Below, one piece after another: positions 15,633 to 28,763 of a stretch of 64,000 nt of DNA. Both the position numbers and the translations under genes were made by a program. Each line of letters begins with the position of its first letter. Position 1 is the first letter of the stretch. This DNA is from Streptomyces sp. SKN60 (GTDB lineage Bacteria > Actinomycetota > Actinomycetes > Streptomycetales > Streptomycetaceae), in contig NZ_JAHTMW010000002.1 in the NCBI RefSeq assembly GCF_026236535.1, positions 496,001 through 560,000 of the forward strand. The letters are read 5' to 3'. A model generated the notes under the pieces. The model saw only the letters and a list, made by a program, of their open reading frames with translations, had not been told where the DNA came from and searched no databases.

Positions 15633-17615
15633 TTACTCGGGGTCCGCGACCAGGGCGGTGCGGCGGCGGGCCAGGACGTCGCGGGTGCGCTGGAGGCGCA
15701 GGGCGAGTTGCACTTCGAGGACCTGGCCGGGCTTCTGCCATTCGGTGCCGAGGAGTTCGCCGATGCGCTCCAGGCGGCGGGAGACCGTGTTGGGGTGCAC
15801 GTGCAGGGCCTCGGCCGCGTTGGTGGGGCTGGCGCCGGAGGCGAAGTAGGCCTCCAGGGTGCGGGTGAGATCGGTGAACCGCTCGGCGTCGTAGTCCAGT
15901 ACGGGGCCGATCGCCGACTCGATGAAGCCGTCCACGTCGTGGTCGTCGGAGAGCAGCAGGCCCAGGAAGCCCAGGTCGTCGACGGACGCGGCGGCACCGG
16001 CGCCGCCGAGCGCGCTCATGGCGTCCAGGCAGCGCATGGCCTCCTGGGAGAGCCGGGCGACGCTGTCGGGGCTCCAGCCGGGGCCGGCGGCGCCGACGGA
16101 CACCGGATGCCCGAGCAGCGGGGCGAGTTCGGCGGAGACGGCCTTCGCGGCGGCGGAGGCGTCCACTCCGGGCAGCAGCAGCACGATGCAGCCGCCCTGC
16201 ACGGTCTTCAGACCCGCCATCCGGTACGCGTACGAGGACGCCCACACGACGGCGCGGCCCTGCTCGCCGCCCTCGGGCCGGGCCACCACCAGGACGTGCG
16301 GCTTGCGCAGGTCGATGCCGAGGCGGCGGGCGCGCTGGGCGATCTGCTGCGGGGCGTGCTGCGGCTCGGCGAGCAGGTCGTCGAGGAGCTCGTCGCGGAC
16401 GGGGCCCTCGGCGACGGCGGTGGAGCGCTGCATCAGGAGCAGGAAGGCGACGGACTGGGCAGCGAGTTCGAGCAGGCGCTCGTCCTCTCCGGTGAGCGGG
16501 GTGGCGGCGCTGACGACGAGGACGCCGAGGTCCTCGGAGCCGGCGATGACCGGGGCGACCCAGGTCTGCGCGGGGGCCCCGGCCCGCGGGGTGTCGTCCC
16601 CGGCGGGGGCGCGGACGGGACGGCGGCCGGCGTGCGCGTCGAGGGAGGCCTTCGCCACCGCGTCCTCGTCGAAGGCAGGGACCTCGCCGGCGGCGGCGAG
16701 CGTGCGGCCGCCCGGGTCGCGGACCAGGACGCAGGCGTCGAGGGCGTCGCCGGCGGTCTTGGCGACGCCGAGGAGATCGCCGCCGGACAGCACCAGGTTC
16801 ATGATCCGGCCGTGGGCCTCGCCGATGTAGCGCATGCGGGTGAGCGCGGTACGGGCGCGGGAGCTGTCCTGCTCCAGTTCGGTGACCTCGGCGCGGGTCT
16901 GGTCGAGCAGGCCGGCCTTCTCGGTGGCCACGGCGGCCAGGTCGGCGAGCGGGGCGAGCAGGCCGAGCTCGCCGTCGGCGAACCGGCGGGCCCGGCGGTC
17001 CCCGCCGTACAGCAGGCCGAGGACCGTGTCGCCGATCCGCAGCGGCACGGCGAGCACCGCGCGCAGTCCCTCGTCGCGGACCAGCCGGTCGACGGCGGGC
17101 ACGTGCGGGAAGCGGTCGTCCGTCAGATAGTCCTCGGTCCAGGCCGGTCCGCCGAGGACGTGGACGAGACCGCCCAGCCCCTCGCGCTCCAGAGCGGCGG
17201 TGCAGCCGGCCGGGTCGAGGACGGTGAGCCCGCCCTCGCTGCTGTGCAGCACGCGCGTGCCGTGCGCGTCGCGCAGGGTGACGCAGGCCAGGTCGAGGTC
17301 GAGGAGCCGGCGGGCGCGGCGGACGATCAGGCGCAGCAGTCCGTCGAGGTCGTACGGGTGGGTGAGGTCGCGGACGGTGTCGGCGAGCGCGTCGAGCGCG
17401 AGGCCGCGCTGCTCGCGGCGGGCGAGCGACTGGGCGACACCGGTCGCGAGCTGCACGGCCCGCTCCAGATGGGCGAGTTCGGCGGCCGGGCGGCCGGCCT
17501 CGCGGGCCCCGTCGAGCAGCTCGGCGAGCCGCTCCGGCGGCGCCTGCTGGGCGAGCAGCTCCAGCACGGAGAGCGCGTCCACGCTTCCGCCCCCGTCCGT
17601 GCCGTGGTGGGACAT
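15633..17615 (-). CDS. GAF-domain PucR/CdaR-type transcriptional regulator
   Basis: This 660-residue protein has an N-terminal helical region, a GAF sensor domain around residues 75-235 (DLDGLLRLIVRRARRLLDLDLACVTLRD ... GLRAVLAVPLRIGDTVLGLLYGG), a second sensor-like region to about 380, and a C-terminal PucR helix-turn-helix (LEAYFASGASPTNAAEALHVHPNTVSRRLERIGELLG, about 595-635). Such regulators often control catabolism of purines, amino acids or aromatics. The start at ATG 17615 has GGGAG 7 bp upstream. Just before it are a 46-codon frame with QQF repeats and the SARP gene on the same strand, so the three may be cotranscribed. The ligand is unknown. Confidence 0.87.
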   Translation of the reverse strand: MSHHGTDGGGSVDALSVLELLAQQAPPERLAELLDGAREAGRPAAELAHLERAVQLATGVAQSLARREQRGLALDALADTVRDLTHPYDLDGLLRLIVRRARRLLDLDLACVTLRDAHGTRVLHSSEGGLTVLDPAGCTAALEREGLGGLVHVLGGPAWTEDYLTDDRFPHVPAVDRLVRDEGLRAVLAVPLRIGDTVLGLLYGGDRRARRFADGELGLLAPLADLAAVATEKAGLLDQTRAEVTELEQDSSRARTALTRMRYIGEAHGRIMNLVLSGGDLLGVAKTAGDALDACVLVRDPGGRTLAAAGEVPAFDEDAVAKASLDAHAGRRPVRAPAGDDTPRAGAPAQTWVAPVIAGSEDLGVLVVSAATPLTGEDERLLELAAQSVAFLLLMQRSTAVAEGPVRDELLDDLLAEPQHAPQQIAQRARRLGIDLRKPHVLVVARPEGGEQGRAVVWASSYAYRMAGLKTVQGGCIVLLLPGVDASAAAKAVSAELAPLLGHPVSVGAAGPGWSPDSVARLSQEAMRCLDAMSALGGAGAAASVDDLGFLGLLLSDDHDVDGFIESAIGPVLDYDAERFTDLTRTLEAYFASGASPTNAAEALHVHPNTVSRRLERIGELLGTEWQKPGQVLEVQLALRLQRTRDVLARRRTALVADPE

Positions 17616-17618
17616 GTA

Positions 17619-17759
17619 TCAACTCCCGCTCTTGTGCAGAACCGGGCGTCGCGCCGGACGCCCGTACCGCTGGTACTGCTGGAACTGCTGGAACTGCTGG
17701 AACTGCTGGAACTGCTGGAACTGCTGGAACTGCTGGCTGAGACTGGATCGCTCGTGCAC
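17619..17759 (-). CDS. Possible 46-residue peptide with a QQF repeat (doubtful gene)
   Basis: The frame runs from GTG 17759 to a TGA that ends 3 bp before the PucR start codon. It encodes VHERSSLS, then six QQF units and QQYQRYGRP, and ends VLHKSGS. The 9-bp tandem repeat at 17667-17738 keeps the frame because its unit is a multiple of three, and the stop lies beside the next gene as in coupled pairs. Against it, there is no ribosome site, the composition is low-complexity, and I know of no homologue. It could be a leader peptide or simply a repeat with an open frame. Confidence 0.3.
   Translation of the reverse strand: MHERSSLSQQFQQFQQFQQFQQFQQFQQYQRYGRPARRPVLHKSGS
17667..17738. repeat. 9-bp tandem repeat, about eight units
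   Basis: The unit CTGCTGGAA is repeated perfectly six times from 17676 to 17729, with degenerate units on each side (CCGCTGGTA and CTGCTGGCT). It starts 52 bp upstream of the PucR-type start codon. Perfect short repeats suggest recent copy-number change by slippage. Confidence 0.9.
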
Positions 17760-17805: not shown

Positions 17806-18720
17806 TCAGACCGGCGCGCCCGCGAACGACGCGCCCGCGAAGGCGGGTACGAGCCGGGGCGTACGGGCCCACACGCCGGGCGCCTGCGCGGGCACCCGGG
17901 GCGGCCGGGCGCCGTCCCGGACGGTGAGCAGCGAGCGGTAGAGCCGGCGCAGCCGCGCGGAGGGCTCCCGGTCGCCGTCGACGAGGAGCGCGCCGCACAG
18001 ACGCTGGTAGACGTCGAGGGCGTCCTCGGTGCGCCCGGAGCGCAGCAGCGCGACCATGAACTGGGCGTGCAGCGCCTCGTTGACGGGGTGCCGGGCGACG
18101 AGGGTGGCGAGTTCGGGGACCATCTCGGCGTGCTTGCCGAGGCCCAGCTGCGCCTCCACCCACTGGTCGAGGACGCTCATCCGGGAGGCGGCCAGGCGCA
18201 CGGTCTCGGCGCGCAGCCGGGGTCCGGCGGCCACGCCCTCGTAGGGCTCGCCGCGCCAGAGGGCGAGCGCCTCGCCGAGCCGGAGCGCGGCCCGGGACAG
18301 GTCGCCGGCCTCCATGGCGCGGTAGCCGGCGCCCGCGGCGCGCTCGAACCGGCCGACGTCGTGGGAGCCGCCGCCGGTGTCGAGGCGGTAGCCGCCGGAC
18401 TGGGCGGCGAGCACGGTCTCGGCGGTGCGCCCGTCCGCGGCGCGCCCGTCGCCCGTACGCCCGTCGCCCGGACGCCGGTCGCCGTCGTGGAGGGCGGCGG
18501 CGATGAGCGCGCGAAGTCCCGTGATGTGCGCGTGGAGTTCGGCGCGGGCGCCGCGCGGGCCGCCGGACGGCCACAGTTCGGCCATGAGCACGGTGGCCGG
18601 CACGACCTGGTCGGCGGAGGCGGCGAGCAGCGCGAGCACCTGTCGCGGCGCGGCGGCGGTCGGGGTGATCGACACCCCGTTCTCGCACACCGAAAGTCCC
18701 CCCAGGATCCGGACGTCCAC
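17806..18720 (-). CDS. SARP-family pathway activator
   Basis: This 304-residue protein has the small-SARP layout: an N-terminal OmpR-like winged helix (MDVRILGGLSVCENGVSITPTAAAPRQVLALLAASADQVVPATVLMAELWP) and a bacterial transcriptional activation domain (GDLSRAALRLGEALALWRGEPYEG ... HPVNEALHAQFMVALLRSGRTEDALDVYQRLCGAL). SARPs activate antibiotic clusters by binding direct repeats near -35 with RNA polymerase. Here no biosynthetic cluster is adjacent. The linker has a GDGRTGDGRAADGRT repeat at about residues 82-97. Two ARE-like sites lie 48-91 bp upstream of the start and a third further out, matching control by the gamma-butyrolactone receptor encoded next to it. Confidence 0.9.
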   Translation of the reverse strand: MDVRILGGLSVCENGVSITPTAAAPRQVLALLAASADQVVPATVLMAELWPSGGPRGARAELHAHITGLRALIAAALHDGDRRPGDGRTGDGRAADGRTAETVLAAQSGGYRLDTGGGSHDVGRFERAAGAGYRAMEAGDLSRAALRLGEALALWRGEPYEGVAAGPRLRAETVRLAASRMSVLDQWVEAQLGLGKHAEMVPELATLVARHPVNEALHAQFMVALLRSGRTEDALDVYQRLCGALLVDGDREPSARLRRLYRSLLTVRDGARPPRVPAQAPGVWARTPRLVPAFAGASFAGAPV

Positions 18721-18767
18721 CTTGCCCCCTCAGTGTCTGCGCACGGGATGACCCTGGACGATTAGAA

Positions 18768-18788
18768 AAGAGACCGCGCGGCATGTCA
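18768..18788. promoter_or_regulatory. ARE-like receptor site 1 upstream of the SARP gene
   Basis: The sequence AAGAGACCGCGCGGCATGTCA has the geometry ACCG-NN-CGGY-ATG. It matches site 2 at 15 of 21 positions with a 23-bp offset, so the two form a direct repeat. The centre is about 58 bp upstream of the SARP start. Confidence 0.55.
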
Positions 18789-18790
18789 AT

Positions 18791-18811
18791 AAGAAACCGG
18801 ACGGTATGGAA
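18791..18811. promoter_or_regulatory. ARE-like receptor site 2 upstream of the SARP gene
   Basis: AAGAAACCGGACGGTATGGAA contains ACCG-GA-CGGT-ATGG. The right half, GGACGGTATGG, agrees at 10 of 11 positions with the known ArpA half-site GG(T/C)CGGT(A/T)(T/C)G(T/G). This is the best receptor site in the window. Confidence 0.7.
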
Positions 18812-18910
18812 TCTCCGGACCCCGTGGGCGGAAATTTTGCCCGGTTCGCCCCACCTTTGCCCCATCAACAACGCGTCAGGATGTGAGGAAACGTACTCGC
18901 GGATCCAGAT

Positions 18911-18931
18911 ACTGGACCCACGGGTATGGTT
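18911..18931. promoter_or_regulatory. ARE-like receptor site 3, distal
   Basis: ACCC-AC-GGGT-ATGG (18916-18929) has the same ACC-N4-GGTATGG pattern as sites 1 and 2 and a perfect 4-bp dyad. It lies about 200 bp upstream of the SARP start, where it could support looping or a separate transcript. Confidence 0.5.
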
Positions 18932-18982
18932 TCCCGCTCGTTTTCAGGCAGGCGTGCGGGCGCCTTCCGGCCAGCGGCACGA

Positions 18983-19004
18983 GAAAACCGGCATGGCGGT
19001 TTTC
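18983..19004. terminator. Stem-loop GAAAACCG/CGGTTTTC
   Basis: GAAAACCG and CGGTTTTC form a perfect 8-bp stem around GCATGG, with T-rich sequence on the flank. It lies between the receptor gene (ends 19275) and the SARP promoter region, so it may stop receptor transcripts before the SARP promoter. Confidence 0.5.
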
Positions 19005-19132
19005 TTTGAGATCATGATGGCCCGGCGCGGACGCAGGGGGAAGCACCCCACCACCAGGAAGTGACGCATCAGAACATGACGTCCGGGGGACGCCAGGGGT
19101 ACGGGCCGGGAACGGGCGCGGGGAGACCCACA

Positions 19133-19244
19133 CGGAAGGGCCCAAGCGGAAGGGCCCAAGCGGAAGGGCCCACGCGGAAGGGCCCAAGCGGAAGGGCCCA
19201 AGCGGAAGGGCCCAAGCGGAAGGCCCCCACGAGGAAGGGCCTCC
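19133..19244. repeat. 14-bp tandem repeat, about eight units
   Basis: The unit CGGAAGGGCCCAAG starts at 19133, 19147, 19161 (one change), 19175, 19189 and 19203; two degenerate units reach 19244. Each unit carries the GGGCCC palindrome. The 14-bp period rules out a simple coding repeat. It begins 31 bp beyond the receptor stop codon. The remaining gap to the SARP gene (18721-19274, 554 bp) holds the ARE sites and the stem-loop but no gene I can support. Confidence 0.9.
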
Positions 19245-19274
19245 CCAGAGGGGTCCGGCCGTGCGGAGCCCCGC

Positions 19275-19922
19275 CTAGGAGGCCTCGTCCGCGAGGCCCA
19301 GCGCGCGGGCGCCGCGGCCCGGCTCCAGGTCCAGCATGGTGAGCACCGCCGGCACCACGATGCTGGGCAGTAAGTGCTGGTAGAGCGCGGAGGCCCAGCG
19401 CTCCATGGAGGAGCGGTCGCCCTCCAGCGCATGGGTCATCAGATTGAGCCCGGCGTAGGCGCCGACCACCAGCGGGGCCACCTGCTCGGGGTCGGCGTGC
19501 GGCAGCAGCTCGCCCTGCCCCTTCGCCTCGCGCAGCAGGCTCATGTTGATGTCGGTCCACTCACGGTAGGGGCCGCTGCGGTTGAGGTCGTGGCCGCCCT
19601 GGTCGAGGGTGAGCCGGACGCTGCCGCTGAGCACCCGGTCGACGGTGAGCCGGTGCGCGAAGACCATGCCGACGTCCACGAACTCCTGGACCTTGCAGGT
19701 CTGCGGCGGGGGCGTGGGCACCACGGACACCTGCGCGTCGATCACCGCGTGCGCGAGGTCTTCCTTGGAGTCGAAGTGGAAGTAGAGCGCGCCCTTGGTC
19801 ACCTGGGCGAGGGCGAGGATGTCGGAGAGCTTCGCCGCCTCGTAGCCCCGCTCGTCGAAGACGGCCGCCGCCGCCTCCAGGATCGCCCTGCGGGTACGGA
19901 TCGCCCGATCCTGCTTCGCCAT
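19275..19922 (-). CDS. Gamma-butyrolactone receptor (ArpA/ScbR family) with a TTA codon
   Basis: This 215-residue TetR-superfamily protein opens MAKQDRAIRTRRAILEAAAAVFDERGYEAA and has VTKGALYFHFDSKEDLAHAV, close to ScbR (MAKQDRAIRTRQTILDAAAQVFEKQGY, GALYFHFQSKEELA). Later receptor-type features include VRLTLDQGGHDLNRSGPYREW and LPSIVVPAVLTMLDLEPGRGAR. These receptors bind ARE sites and release DNA when a gamma-butyrolactone is bound. Codon 184 (19371-19373 on the plus strand, in HLLPS) is TTA, the rare bldA-dependent leucine codon. An ARE-like site lies upstream at 19976-19996. No gamma-butyrolactone synthase gene (scbA/afsA type) is nearby, so it may be an orphan receptor. Confidence 0.9.
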   Translation of the reverse strand: MAKQDRAIRTRRAILEAAAAVFDERGYEAAKLSDILALAQVTKGALYFHFDSKEDLAHAVIDAQVSVVPTPPPQTCKVQEFVDVGMVFAHRLTVDRVLSGSVRLTLDQGGHDLNRSGPYREWTDINMSLLREAKGQGELLPHADPEQVAPLVVGAYAGLNLMTHALEGDRSSMERWASALYQHLLPSIVVPAVLTMLDLEPGRGARALGLADEAS

Positions 19923-19975
19923 GGGAGTCACGTCCCTCTCATCGCGCCCGAACCGGCATCCCGGTGGCCCGAGAA

Positions 19976-19996
19976 AACAAACCTTGGGGTACCAAT
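19976..19996. promoter_or_regulatory. ARE-like site 4 upstream of the receptor gene (autoregulation)
   Basis: AACAAACCTTGGGGTACCAAT contains ACCT-TG-GGGT-ACC, the same ACC-N4-GGTA(T/C) geometry as the sites before the SARP gene. It is 54-74 bp upstream of the receptor start at 19922, a usual place for receptor self-repression. Confidence 0.6.
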
Positions 19997-20110
19997 TTTC
20001 CGGCAGCTGGAAGATACCCGAAGCCATGTTCGCAATGAACCCGAACGCCCGGCCATCGCCGAATTCACGCCTCTGACCAGCTGATTTGCCGATCTACTCG
20101 AGTAAGAGAA

Positions 20111-20143
20111 CGTCAGGTCGGCTCCGCTCGCGCCGACCTGACG
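20111..20143. terminator. Strong hairpin after the vWA lipoprotein gene
   Basis: CGTCAGGTCGGC and GCCGACCTGACG form a perfect 12-bp stem with a 9-base loop. It lies 108 bp downstream of the vWA stop (20251) and upstream of the receptor promoter on the same strand, separating the two units. The rest of 19923-20250 holds site 4 and further GC-rich inverted sequence but no gene. Confidence 0.75.
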
Positions 20144-20250
20144 GCGTGCTCGATCTCTTCGAACGTCACTCAGGGCGACCGGAAAACCGACCCTCCGGTC
20201 CCCTGTTCGGTATACCGGCCGGACCGGCCGGTCGGTCAGCGTACGGCCGG

Positions 20251-21819
20251 TCAGTCCGCGTACGGGTCGGCGGAACCGTCGCGGCCGCCGAGCCGGTCGG
20301 CCTGCCGGATGGCCTCGGCCAGCTCCCGTACGGACGCCGAGCGGGCCCGGTCGGCGAGCGCGCCCGCGCGGGCCGCGAGGCCGGAGAGCTGCGGGGCTCC
20401 GGCCACCTGGCCGCCGCGCAGCCGGTCGGCGAAGTAGGCGGCGATGGCGGTCAGCTGGAGGCTGTCGTGGCCGCCGCCCCAGATCGGCGCGGTGAGCGCG
20501 GCGGTCTCGACGGTGCCGGAGCGCTCGTGCGGGGCGCGGGTCGCGGGGTCGAGCCAGTGGACGGTGGCGGTGGCGACCCGGCCCTGCTGCCCGGGCCGCA
20601 GCTTCACCGCGTACAGCGCGGTCACGGTGTGCCCGGCGCCGACCTCGCCGCCGTCCACCCGGTCGTTGCGGAAGTCCTCGTCGGCGACCTTGCGGTTGTC
20701 GTAACCGATGAGCTTGAAGCTCTCCACGGTCCTCGGGTCGAAGGCGACCTGCGCCTTGGCGTCGCGGGCGCGCAGTTCGATGTGGCTGGGGAGCTGGTCG
20801 ACGAAGACCTTGCGGGCCTGCTCGGAGGTGCCGACGTAGCTGGTGTGGCCGTCGCCCTTGTCGGCGAGCTGCTCCATGAAGGCATCGCCGTAGTCGCTGC
20901 CGACGCCGACGCCGAACAGTGTGATGCCGTACGTGCGGCGCTCCTTGTCGACGCGCTCCAGGATGCCGGAGGCCTCGGTGTCGCCGGTGTTGGCGAGGGC
21001 GTCGGAGAGCAGCACGACCCGGTTGGTGGCGCCCTTGCGGCGGCCCTCGACGGCGACGCCGTAGCCGGTGCGGACGCCCGCCTCGACGTTGGTGGAGGAG
21101 GTGGTCTCCAGGGCGTCGACGACCTCGTGGATCCGGCCGCGGTTGGGGCCGACGCGGGTCATGGGGAGCCGGGTCTCGGCGTCGGAGCTGAAGGTGACGA
21201 GGGCGACGGAGTCGTCGTCGCGGAGCTTGTCGGCGAGCAGCCCGAGGGACTCCTTGACCAGGTCGAGGCGGCCCGGTTCGCCCATGGAGCCGGAGATGTC
21301 GACGACGAAGGTGAGGGCGGCGGGCGGGCGTTCGCCGTCGCTGGGCCTCGTGGCGAGGCCGACGCGTACGAGCGACCAGCCGGGCGCGTCGGAGCGGGCG
21401 CCGTCGACGGTGACGCTGAAGCCGTTGTCCTCGGGACGCCGATAGTCCGGTTTGAAGCTGTTGACGAACTCCTCGGGACGGACGTCCGCCGGGTCGGGCA
21501 GCCGGCCCTCGGCGAGGGTGCGGCGGGCGTAGCCGTACGAGGCGGTGTCGACGTCGAGCGCGAAGGTGGACAGCCGGTCCGGGGCGGGCGCGGGCTTCCC
21601 GTCGGGGGCCTTGCTCGGCGCCTTCTCCGCCGCGCCCTTGCCGCCGTCGGGGACGGCCGGGCGGTTCGGCGCGGGCGCGCCCCGGTCGGCGCGGGAGCCG
21701 TCCGCACTGGTGCGCGAACCGTTTGCGCCGCCCGCGCAGCCCGCGACCAGCAGGACGCCTCCGAGCGTTCCGGCGACCACACCGGCCAGCCTTCGCTTCA
21801 TGATCCGCTTCATGGGCAT
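20251..21819 (-). CDS. vWA-domain lipoprotein (YfbK-like)
   Basis: This 522-residue protein has a lipoprotein signal (MKRRLAGVVAGTLGGVLLVAGC), a Ser/Pro-rich linker, an N-terminal segment STFALDVDTASYGYARRTL typical of YfbK-type proteins, a von Willebrand A domain with a full MIDAS (DISGSM near residue 165, then SSTNVEAG and LLSDALANTGD), and a C-terminal DUF3520-like part. It should be anchored outside the cell membrane and bind divalent metal; the partner is unknown. Three nearby ATG codons are possible; 21819 was chosen because GGGGG lies just upstream. It is divergent from the HTH gene at 22048. Confidence 0.85.
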   Translation of the reverse strand: MPMKRIMKRRLAGVVAGTLGGVLLVAGCAGGANGSRTSADGSRADRGAPAPNRPAVPDGGKGAAEKAPSKAPDGKPAPAPDRLSTFALDVDTASYGYARRTLAEGRLPDPADVRPEEFVNSFKPDYRRPEDNGFSVTVDGARSDAPGWSLVRVGLATRPSDGERPPAALTFVVDISGSMGEPGRLDLVKESLGLLADKLRDDDSVALVTFSSDAETRLPMTRVGPNRGRIHEVVDALETTSSTNVEAGVRTGYGVAVEGRRKGATNRVVLLSDALANTGDTEASGILERVDKERRTYGITLFGVGVGSDYGDAFMEQLADKGDGHTSYVGTSEQARKVFVDQLPSHIELRARDAKAQVAFDPRTVESFKLIGYDNRKVADEDFRNDRVDGGEVGAGHTVTALYAVKLRPGQQGRVATATVHWLDPATRAPHERSGTVETAALTAPIWGGGHDSLQLTAIAAYFADRLRGGQVAGAPQLSGLAARAGALADRARSASVRELAEAIRQADRLGGRDGSADPYAD

Positions 21820-21990
21820 ATCCCCCATCTCCTCATCTCTCCCTGGGAGGTCGGCACTTGTGAATGTGACGTCCGGGAGGGCCGGAAGGAGCAGACGAAG
21901 GAGTTGCGGAAGGATCTCAATGCGGCAACGGCGGCGGGGGCGCGCTGCCGTGGCAGGGACTCGCCATCCTTGTCAACAGGGGTTGTCACC

Positions 21991-27554: not shown

Positions 27555-28700
27555 TCAGGGGACGTTCTGGACGACCTCGCAGGAGGCGTTGGCCGTGTCC
27601 GTGCCCGTCTGGCCGTTGCAGGTGTCGGGGGCGCCGGGGCCGCCGTCGAGGGAGTCGTTGCCCGGGCCCGCGAGGATGGTGTCGGCGCCGTCGTCGCCGC
27701 GCAGGGCGTCCGAGCCGCCCGCGGTGCCGACGGTGGCGGTGAGGTTGTAGTCGGCGTTGTCGCCGAAGATCCGGTCGTTGCCGCCGCCGCCGTTGATCAC
27801 GTCGCTGCTCGCGGAGGTGGTGGCCGCGCTGGAGACGGAGCTCTCGCCGGTCAGCAGTTCGTTGCTCGGACCGCCCGTGATCCGGTCGCTTCCGGAGCCG
27901 GTCGCGGTGCCTCCGTTGTCGACCCGGAGGTTGTGGTCGCCGATGATCGCGAACGATCCGTCCGTGGTGTCGCTGATGACGTCGTTCCCGCCGTTGCCGC
28001 TCGCGTTCCCGCCCGTCGCGTCGCTGTCACCGACGAGGAAGTCCTGGGCTCCCAGGCCGCCGTCGATGATGTCGCTGCCCGCGCCGCTCGCGTTCCCGGC
28101 CGTCGAACGGGCGTCGCCGACGATGTCGTCGCTCTCGGCGCCGCCGTTGAGGCGGTCCCATCCGCTGCCGCTGGCGTTGGCGCCCAGGCTGTCGCCGGTC
28201 AGGAAGTCGTTGCCCGTGCCGCCGTCCAGGGTGTCGTTCGCACCGCCCGAGGCGGTGAAGGCGCCGCTGAAGGGGGCCCGGTTGTCACCGGCCAGCGAGT
28301 CGTTGCCGCTGCCGCCGAGCAGGGTGTCGGAGGACACGGCGCCGGTGGAGGAGCCGCTCGTGTTGAACGTGTCGCCGATGAGACGGTCGTTGTCCGCGCC
28401 GCCGTCGAGGCGGTCGCTGCCGAGCCCGCCCGTCAGCAGGTCGTCGCCGCCGAGGCCGCAGATCAGGTCGTTGCCGCCGAGGCCGTTGATCGTGTCGCTG
28501 CCGGCCGTACCGACGATCACGTCGTTGCCCGCCGTGCCGTTGGTGGTCTGGCCGGGGGCGCCGACGACGATCGTGGCGGGCGCGCCGAAGCAGGTCGGCT
28601 GCTGGGCTTCGGCCGACGGGGCGGCGAGTCCGACGGCCCCCAGAGCGAGTGCGCAGGCGTATCCGCTCGTGGCTACACGGCGGAGATGACTCCTCGTCAT
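27555..28700 (-). CDS. Secreted RTX (hemolysin-type calcium-binding) repeat protein
   Basis: This 381-residue protein has an N-terminal signal sequence (HLRRVATSGYACALALGAVGLAAPSAEA) and then many GGxGxDxUx nonapeptides, for example GLGGNDLICGLGGDDLLTGG, GGSGNDSLAGD and GPGNDSLDGG, forming a calcium-dependent beta-roll over nearly the whole length. Repeats are interrupted by Ser/Thr/Ala-rich loops of about 10-15 residues. No catalytic domain is present, so it may be a structural, adhesive or calcium-storing surface protein. A C-terminal cysteine pair (DTCNGQ ... NASCEV) may form a disulfide. ATG 28700 was chosen because AAAGGA lies 6 bp upstream. Confidence 0.87.
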   Translation of the reverse strand: MTRSHLRRVATSGYACALALGAVGLAAPSAEAQQPTCFGAPATIVVGAPGQTTNGTAGNDVIVGTAGSDTINGLGGNDLICGLGGDDLLTGGLGSDRLDGGADNDRLIGDTFNTSGSSTGAVSSDTLLGGSGNDSLAGDNRAPFSGAFTASGGANDTLDGGTGNDFLTGDSLGANASGSGWDRLNGGAESDDIVGDARSTAGNASGAGSDIIDGGLGAQDFLVGDSDATGGNASGNGGNDVISDTTDGSFAIIGDHNLRVDNGGTATGSGSDRITGGPSNELLTGESSVSSAATTSASSDVINGGGGNDRIFGDNADYNLTATVGTAGGSDALRGDDGADTILAGPGNDSLDGGPGAPDTCNGQTGTDTANASCEVVQNVP

Positions 28701-28763
28701 CGACATTCCTTTCGATCATGGACAGATTTTCGAGAACTGCCTCAGGATCGTTCCCGCCCGCTC

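Follow-up and report, generated by a model that had tools for sequence, protein, structure and literature searches.

A receptor gene of the ScbR/ArpA family stands beside its probable SARP target, without three hormone-synthesis genes found with both in relatives, in a 64,000-nucleotide stretch of the genome of Streptomyces sp. SKN60 (the window). Judged from the loci compared, the receptor is orphaned by deletion of these three genes in the window genome and in two close genomes, G310 and G383. A surviving relic of the promoter shows that the cassette was once present in this trio. The receptor probably still represses the SARP gene and would answer a lactone that the locus no longer makes. 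Most probably it serves to listen for outside signals, perhaps with cross-wiring to the butenolide system of the strain itself. The protein families are familiar and their evolutionary state is unusual; the function proposed for them here is inferred.

Genes of the locus

The window belongs to a 7.87-Mb genome in 83 contigs. As the sequence-only reading had stated, a receptor-family gene, a BTAD/SARP gene and a GAF/PucR gene are present, all on the minus strand (Table 1). In a profile search the receptor gave 214.2 bits against the ScbR-family model NF041196 (cut-off 150), and a TetR_N domain was found; the solved structure nearest to it is that of AvaR1, the avenolide receptor. The SARP, a probable antibiotic activator, gave 131.7 bits for BTAD (cut-off 22.1), and its N-terminal OmpR-type DNA-binding domain scored under the cut-off (Trans_reg_C, 21.6 bits against 26.2). 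The PucR gene is a frequent neighbour of the SARP gene, matched at 25 of the 26 close orthologue loci described below and absent beside L090, L096 and L097. G310 and G383 retain a small anthrone-oxygenase-like gene beside the VWA gene, which the window lacks. Tandem arrays occupy the receptor/SARP interval (19133-19241; 7.7 copies of the 14-bp unit CGGAAGGGCCCAAG) and the SARP/PucR interval (17669-17736; 7.6 copies of the 9-bp unit GCTGGAACT). Elsewhere in the window, 27555-28706 encodes a protein with RTX calcium-binding nonapeptide repeats (PF00353).

Table 1. Features of the receptor-SARP locus in window coordinates.
Feature	Position	Strand	Remarks
GAF/PucR regulator gene, downstream of SARP	15633..17615	minus	PF13556, PF01590
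SARP-family activator gene	17806..18720	minus	304 aa, GTG start
SARP promoter (predicted)	18761..18789	minus	TTGACA 18789-18784, 17 nt, TCTAAT 18766-18761; called on invariance across loci
Proximal SARP operator (predicted), AAACC-N4-GGTAT	18794..18807	plus	beside the -35 box; one of the sites of the sequence-only reading
Middle site, imperfect 46-bp inverted repeat	18888..18933	.	contains ACC-N4-GGTATG at 18916; read from sequence
Distal SARP operator (predicted), AAACCGGCATGGCGGTTT	18985..19002	.	ACC-N8-GGT palindrome; 18/18 to the published AvaR1 consensus
Receptor gene, ScbR/ArpA family	19275..19922	minus	215 aa, ATG at 19922
Relic of former afsA/phosphatase divergent promoter	19945..20026	minus	fused to receptor leader at ~19945
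Relic operator (predicted), AAACC-N4-GGTAC	19979..19992	plus	within promoter relic; fourth site of the sequence-only reading
VWA-domain protein gene, locus flank marker	20251..21828	minus	PF00092, PF12034; same flank in most related loci

Loss of the hormone-synthesis genes

The gene order in relatives is afsA-phosphatase-dehydrogenase-receptor-SARP, with the synthesis genes directly upstream of the receptor. This full cassette was found in G025, G041 (= L088), G385, S. purpureus, S. lateritius and Streptomyces sp. ISL-36 (cassette-holder loci L163-L165, L088, L090, L096 and L097), and a distant version consisting of afsA, HAD, SDR, receptor and SARP was found in G074 (L166). Four cassette AfsA proteins were scanned and gave 369-379 bits against NF041195 (cut-off 200). 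The HAD-like phosphatase was weak in Pfam (22.8 and 28.5 bits in the two scanned, cut-off 26.4), and for L163, where afsA and HAD are present, tblastn listed no SDR match. With the same program, neither the window nor the G310 and G383 loci (L161 and L162) gave a match to any of the three genes afsA, HAD and SDR.

The 82-nt promoter relic is 87.8% identical to the afsA-HAD intergenic region of S. lateritius and 80-86% identical to those of G385, G041 and G025. The receptor leader to which it is fused (19922-19945) is 91.7% identical to four of five cassette receptor leaders, and in the alignment the promoter-leader fusion is the same in the window genome, G310 and G383. Among the cassette loci scanned, five of six have an AAACC-N4-GGTAY-type element in the afsA-HAD promoter; it is missing from S. 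purpureus (L090) and from the distant L166. Since the relic corresponds to the former synthesis promoter, the site that had been assigned to the receptor gene is the predicted operator of the lost operon. What had been described as a complete switch is the remnant of one, the synthesis genes that lie upstream of the receptor in relatives being gone here.

A SARP tree (50 rows, 16 duplicates dropped, L112 left out, midpoint root) separated five groups: the trio, a set of six cassette rows, 36 rows without a receptor, two distant rows also without one, and an outgroup that has the receptor. Several deep forks have moderate support only. In the simplest history, the ancestor of the trio would have lost the synthesis genes and the 36 the whole cassette; in the case of the 36, the other lineages may instead have gained the cassette later.

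The search for AfsA was extended to whole genomes. No match was obtained in the window's genome (83-contig assembly), and the same search matched 342 of 392 genus genomes, which serve as the positive control, and 0 of 14 named control genomes. The synthase of a complete receptor-synthase cassette was found neither as afsA in the window nor as AfsA in the genome. An AfsA match is present in 26 of the 27 genomes carrying the SARP promoter motif (see below). In G310 and G383 the deletion is the same, but AfsA matches occur at other places in these genomes, so that a home-made GBL is possible there. Four genomes that are receptor-less at the SARP locus were looked up (G004, G015, G076 and G143), and each has an AfsA-receptor pair elsewhere. 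The AfsA-receptor loci of G015 and G270 (L157 and L160) contain an 18/18 operator between the two genes, and this second pair is a candidate trans regulator of the SARP there.

Predicted operators and promoter of the SARP gene

The sequence-only reading had placed three ACC-N4-GGTA(T/C) sites before the SARP gene and one before the receptor gene. A both-strand scan of 18500-20300 gave three instead of four: 18796 and 18916 upstream of the SARP gene, in the same orientation, and 19981 upstream of the receptor gene; the third SARP site was not recovered. The best operator candidate, 18985-19002, was absent from that list. It matches the AvaR1 consensus, as an autoregulatory element (ARE) of this kind does, and is spanned by an inverted repeat at 18982-19005. 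The inverted repeat of the middle site (18888-18933) was not reported by the automated repeat search.

Conservation was analyzed in two overlapping sets of SARP loci. A search of 392 same-genus genomes gave 26 loci with close SARP orthologues (at least 64% identity; the next at 51-55%), and a second search returned 48 named loci, 36 of which were used as orthologues (L070-L104 and L112) and 12 of which (51% or lower) were set aside. The core of the proximal operator, RTACC-N4-GGTTTCTTATTGACA, occupies the same position in 26/26 and 36/36 loci (62/62, overlapping sets), and TACC and CGGTTTCTTATTGACATG are invariant across the 26. A consensus promoter scan gave nothing above threshold, and the SARP promoter was called because its elements are invariant: TTGACATG and TAATC are unchanged in the 26 loci. 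The promoter motif occurs in 27 of the 392 genomes, once in each, and its reversed control occurs in none. A general tie between this SARP and aco was considered and rejected, as only five of the 27 genomes have a close Aco (G000, G238, G268, G310 and G383), with a 37% match in G249.

A receptor gene is present at the SARP locus in 6 of the 26 and 4 of the 36 loci, and the proximal site is kept without a local receptor gene in 52 of 62 (20/26 and 32/36). The proximal operator of the SARP gene is therefore independent of an adjacent receptor, and the sites alone do not link the window receptor to the SARP. The earlier proposal that the receptor controls both the SARP gene and itself draws its support from the comparison of loci, and not from the sites by themselves.

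The other two sites may vary with the receptor. The distal position scores 16-18 against the AvaR1 consensus in ten receptor-bearing loci, and the best score anywhere in the upstream region of receptor-less loci is 15-17, a difference that is only suggestive as the groups are few and related. The second half of the middle site (GRGTACG) was found in four of six receptor-bearing and in 0 of 20 receptor-less loci; it looks as if it were an extra operator gained or lost together with the receptor.

Specificity of the motifs

The genome search proposed with the sequence-only reading, for ACC-N4-GGTAYG, gave 233 places against 104 for the reversed control, and the motif as written is not beyond chance and does not serve as a genome-wide classifier; ACC-N4-GGTA[TC] occurs six times within the window alone. 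The reported 10-of-11 agreement with the ArpA half-site is indeed present at 18799, but scores of 10 or 11 of 11 are reached 64 times in the window, which excludes the half-site as a marker.

The stricter AAACC-N4-GGTAY, which does exceed chance in this genome, was found at four places in 7.87 Mb, with none for the reversed control: in the promoters of the SARP gene, the receptor gene and the avenolide-type aco gene on contig C8, and at C15:114628. The last of these (C15:114628-114641, or L170:4628-4641) is situated some 31 bases ahead of an ORF start and may fall at the end of the preceding gene. Over five genomes the element gave 18 matches versus 10 in the reversed control, 10 of the 18 falling at both locus sites in each genome, 1 at aco and 7 elsewhere; the element is thus enriched without being exclusive. 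In 20 Mb of sequence simulated with a first-order Markov model, N4 sites arose at 1.6 per 7.87 Mb and the 18-mer did not occur. When the spacing of RTACC-n-GGTTT was varied from n = 0 to 14, only n = 4 occurred in the window, twice. The N4-spaced sites are conserved and promoter-placed, yet of the upstream regions of 24 other receptors just 2 contain one, and the N4 geometry is not supported as an operator for receptors in general.

Matches to the published 18-bp consensus for AvaR1 operators, AWWCCRBBHDDNMSGTWT (available part of PMC5744401), number three in this genome: the C8 aco promoter has two, and the third is that at 18985-19002. The reversed control gave 0. Ten places were found over six genomes; eight of them lie in aco clusters or SARP promoters and the other two are both in G385.

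The orphaned receptor and the avenolide-type cluster

Within the trio, the dN/dS of the receptor (against G310 and G383) is 0.13-0.16, compared with 0.06-0.16 in three cassette-holder pairs and 0.21-0.25 in two between-group pairs. These ratios indicate that the window receptor is still under purifying selection. Q64, T108 and W127, described for AvaR1 as the residues coupling ligand to DNA release in the available text of PMC7347384, are all retained. By a definition of our own, modelled on the residue roles in that paper, a pseudo-receptor (ScbR2/AvaR2 type) has lost these lactone-coupling residues; the window receptor keeps them.

Contig C8 encodes a pseudo-receptor-like protein, a P450 and a receptor, with the gene of an acyl-CoA oxidase in divergent orientation (L167 = G000:C8:110001-114500; L010:957-3799), a layout resembling that reported for S. 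avermitilis in the accessible parts of PMC5744401 and PMC7554373. The pseudo-receptor-like protein has Ala at 64 and Ser at 108. The aco promoter contains two exact AvaR1-type operators, the only others in the genome, together with an N4 element. The aco cluster is present in the window genome, G310 and G383 (80-100%; oxidase 83% in G383 and 80% in G310), and the G383 and G310 clusters include the receptor and the operators. No Aco match was obtained in G025, G041 or G385 at E 1e-60.

An AvaR1-type receptor would be linked to aco; here aco stands on C8 beside another receptor. In the receptor tree the window receptor falls within the cassette clade, away from all 14 aco-linked rows, and the pocket residues are divided in the same way: G85, F88, Y161 and A162 of the window receptor are as in its cassette relatives, with I130 in place of their usual Leu, and all 14 aco-linked rows have A85, L88, H130, F161 and T162 against G, F, I, Y and A. 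Residue 162, a Thr that contacts the lactone in AvaR1, is Ala in the window receptor and all cassette relatives. N131, which is common to the window and C8 receptors, was considered as a sign of retuning to a butenolide and dismissed, being shared by the cassette holders L165, L090, L096 and L097.

Proposed regulation and alternatives

In the mechanism that we favor, receptor dimers on 18985-19002 and 18794-18807 would block the SARP promoter, and the receptor would repress its own gene via the relic operator at 19979-19992. A GBL or SAB-type butenolide from neighbouring strains would free the receptor, and the freed promoter would let the SARP activate a pathway. As no AfsA match was obtained in the strain, release would depend on such an outside lactone or on cross-action of the butenolide system. 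The C8 receptor may also act on the SARP promoter because its cluster carries the same operators, and full induction could need both signals. Another receptor can, from the distribution of the site, be the main reader of the proximal operator, since this is kept in 52 of 62 loci without a local receptor. The rarity of N4 spacing before other receptors and the residues at 162 (Ala) and 130 (Ile) also count against the favored mechanism. A more elaborate form of the proposal seems unlikely to us, in which a two-hormone listener would have captured the promoter of the lost genes, would report only foreign lactones and would share the SARP operators with the butenolide receptor, the SARP needing both signals.

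A somewhat unlikely alternative is a rewired switch that answers the avenolide-type butenolide of the strain itself, the SARP being controlled by either the C8 receptor or the window receptor with a butenolide ligand. It is favored by the positions of the genome's three exact 18-mers (a pair at aco and a single one before the SARP gene), by the N4 element in the aco promoter and by the occurrence of the aco cluster in the trio, with no Aco match (E 1e-60) in G025, G041 and G385, and S. pristinaespiralis, reported to be without an afsA-like gene and to have a probably avenolide-type ligand (PMC7554373, in the portion available), provides a precedent. The pocket of the window receptor at 85, 88, 130, 161 and 162 is unlike that of all 14 aco-linked rows, however, and the exact 18-mer also precedes the SARP gene in G025 and G041, both without Aco at E 1e-60; it may therefore be the cassette receptor's own operator. 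Quite improbable is a receptor that acts as a ligand-blind brake or that senses an antibiotic or intermediate like a pseudo-receptor. The locus without a synthase and the genome without an AfsA match would fit such a protein, and antibiotic-binding pseudo-receptors are known (available part of PMC6930871), but Q64, T108 and W127 are kept, whereas positions 64 and 108 are Ala and Ser in the pseudo-receptor-like protein of C8, and purifying selection continues. A third alternative, that some unrelated regulator or indeed the SARP binds the SARP-promoter site and that the likeness to receptor operators is incidental, agrees with the presence of the site in receptor-less loci, its position abutting the -35 box and the rarity of N4 spacing before other receptors. 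We consider it very improbable because the same element recurs in the afsA-HAD promoter (5/6 cassette loci), the receptor promoters of the trio and the C8 aco promoter, and because the four receptor-less genomes looked up have an AfsA-receptor pair elsewhere and the two such loci analyzed (G015 and G270) have an 18/18 operator.

Comparison with known systems

The locus lets one see how an 'orphan' receptor comes about and acquires an operator. A strain that keeps its receptor intact and under selection, together with the target promoter, and has no AfsA match would offer a clean test: any response to a lactone would have to originate outside the strain or in its butenolide cluster. Full cassette, receptor only and no cassette together form a natural series in which the target promoter site stays constant, over 45 distinct SARP orthologues. 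In proteobacteria, LuxR solos are likewise receptors without a synthase of their own and are proposed to hear other signals; their protein family and chemistry are unrelated. Among the matches listed in a search of titles and abstract openings in the open-licence literature, no paper dealt with this SARP locus or described a receptor that had become an orphan through loss of its synthase by deletion. The cross-listening of Streptomyces strains to gamma-butyrolactones is named as an objective for future work in the available part of PMC7885098.

Several characterized systems resemble parts of the locus, as far as the accessible portions of the cited papers describe them. SabA-SabP-SabD/SabR1 of S. 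ansochromogenes (PMC6930871) is alike in the AfsA-like protein, phosphatase, dehydrogenase and ArpA-type receptor of the relatives; the window has lost all three synthesis genes, and the lost product would be a GBL or a butenolide. Aco-Cyp17-AvaR1 of S. avermitilis (PMC5744401 and PMC7347384) has an identical class of 18-bp operator and a counterpart in the similar cluster on C8, but the window receptor falls outside the aco-linked clade and differs in its pocket residues. SpbR of S. pristinaespiralis (PMC7554373) is also an ArpA-type receptor in a strain reported without afsA and with an avenolide-type candidate synthase; unlike the window receptor, it adjoins its P450/Aco genes and an antibiotic cluster. 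Compared with the orphan receptors CprA and CprB of S. coelicolor, as presented in the available part of PMC6930871, the window receptor differs in that the orphaning deletion is visible and the target SARP gene adjoins it.
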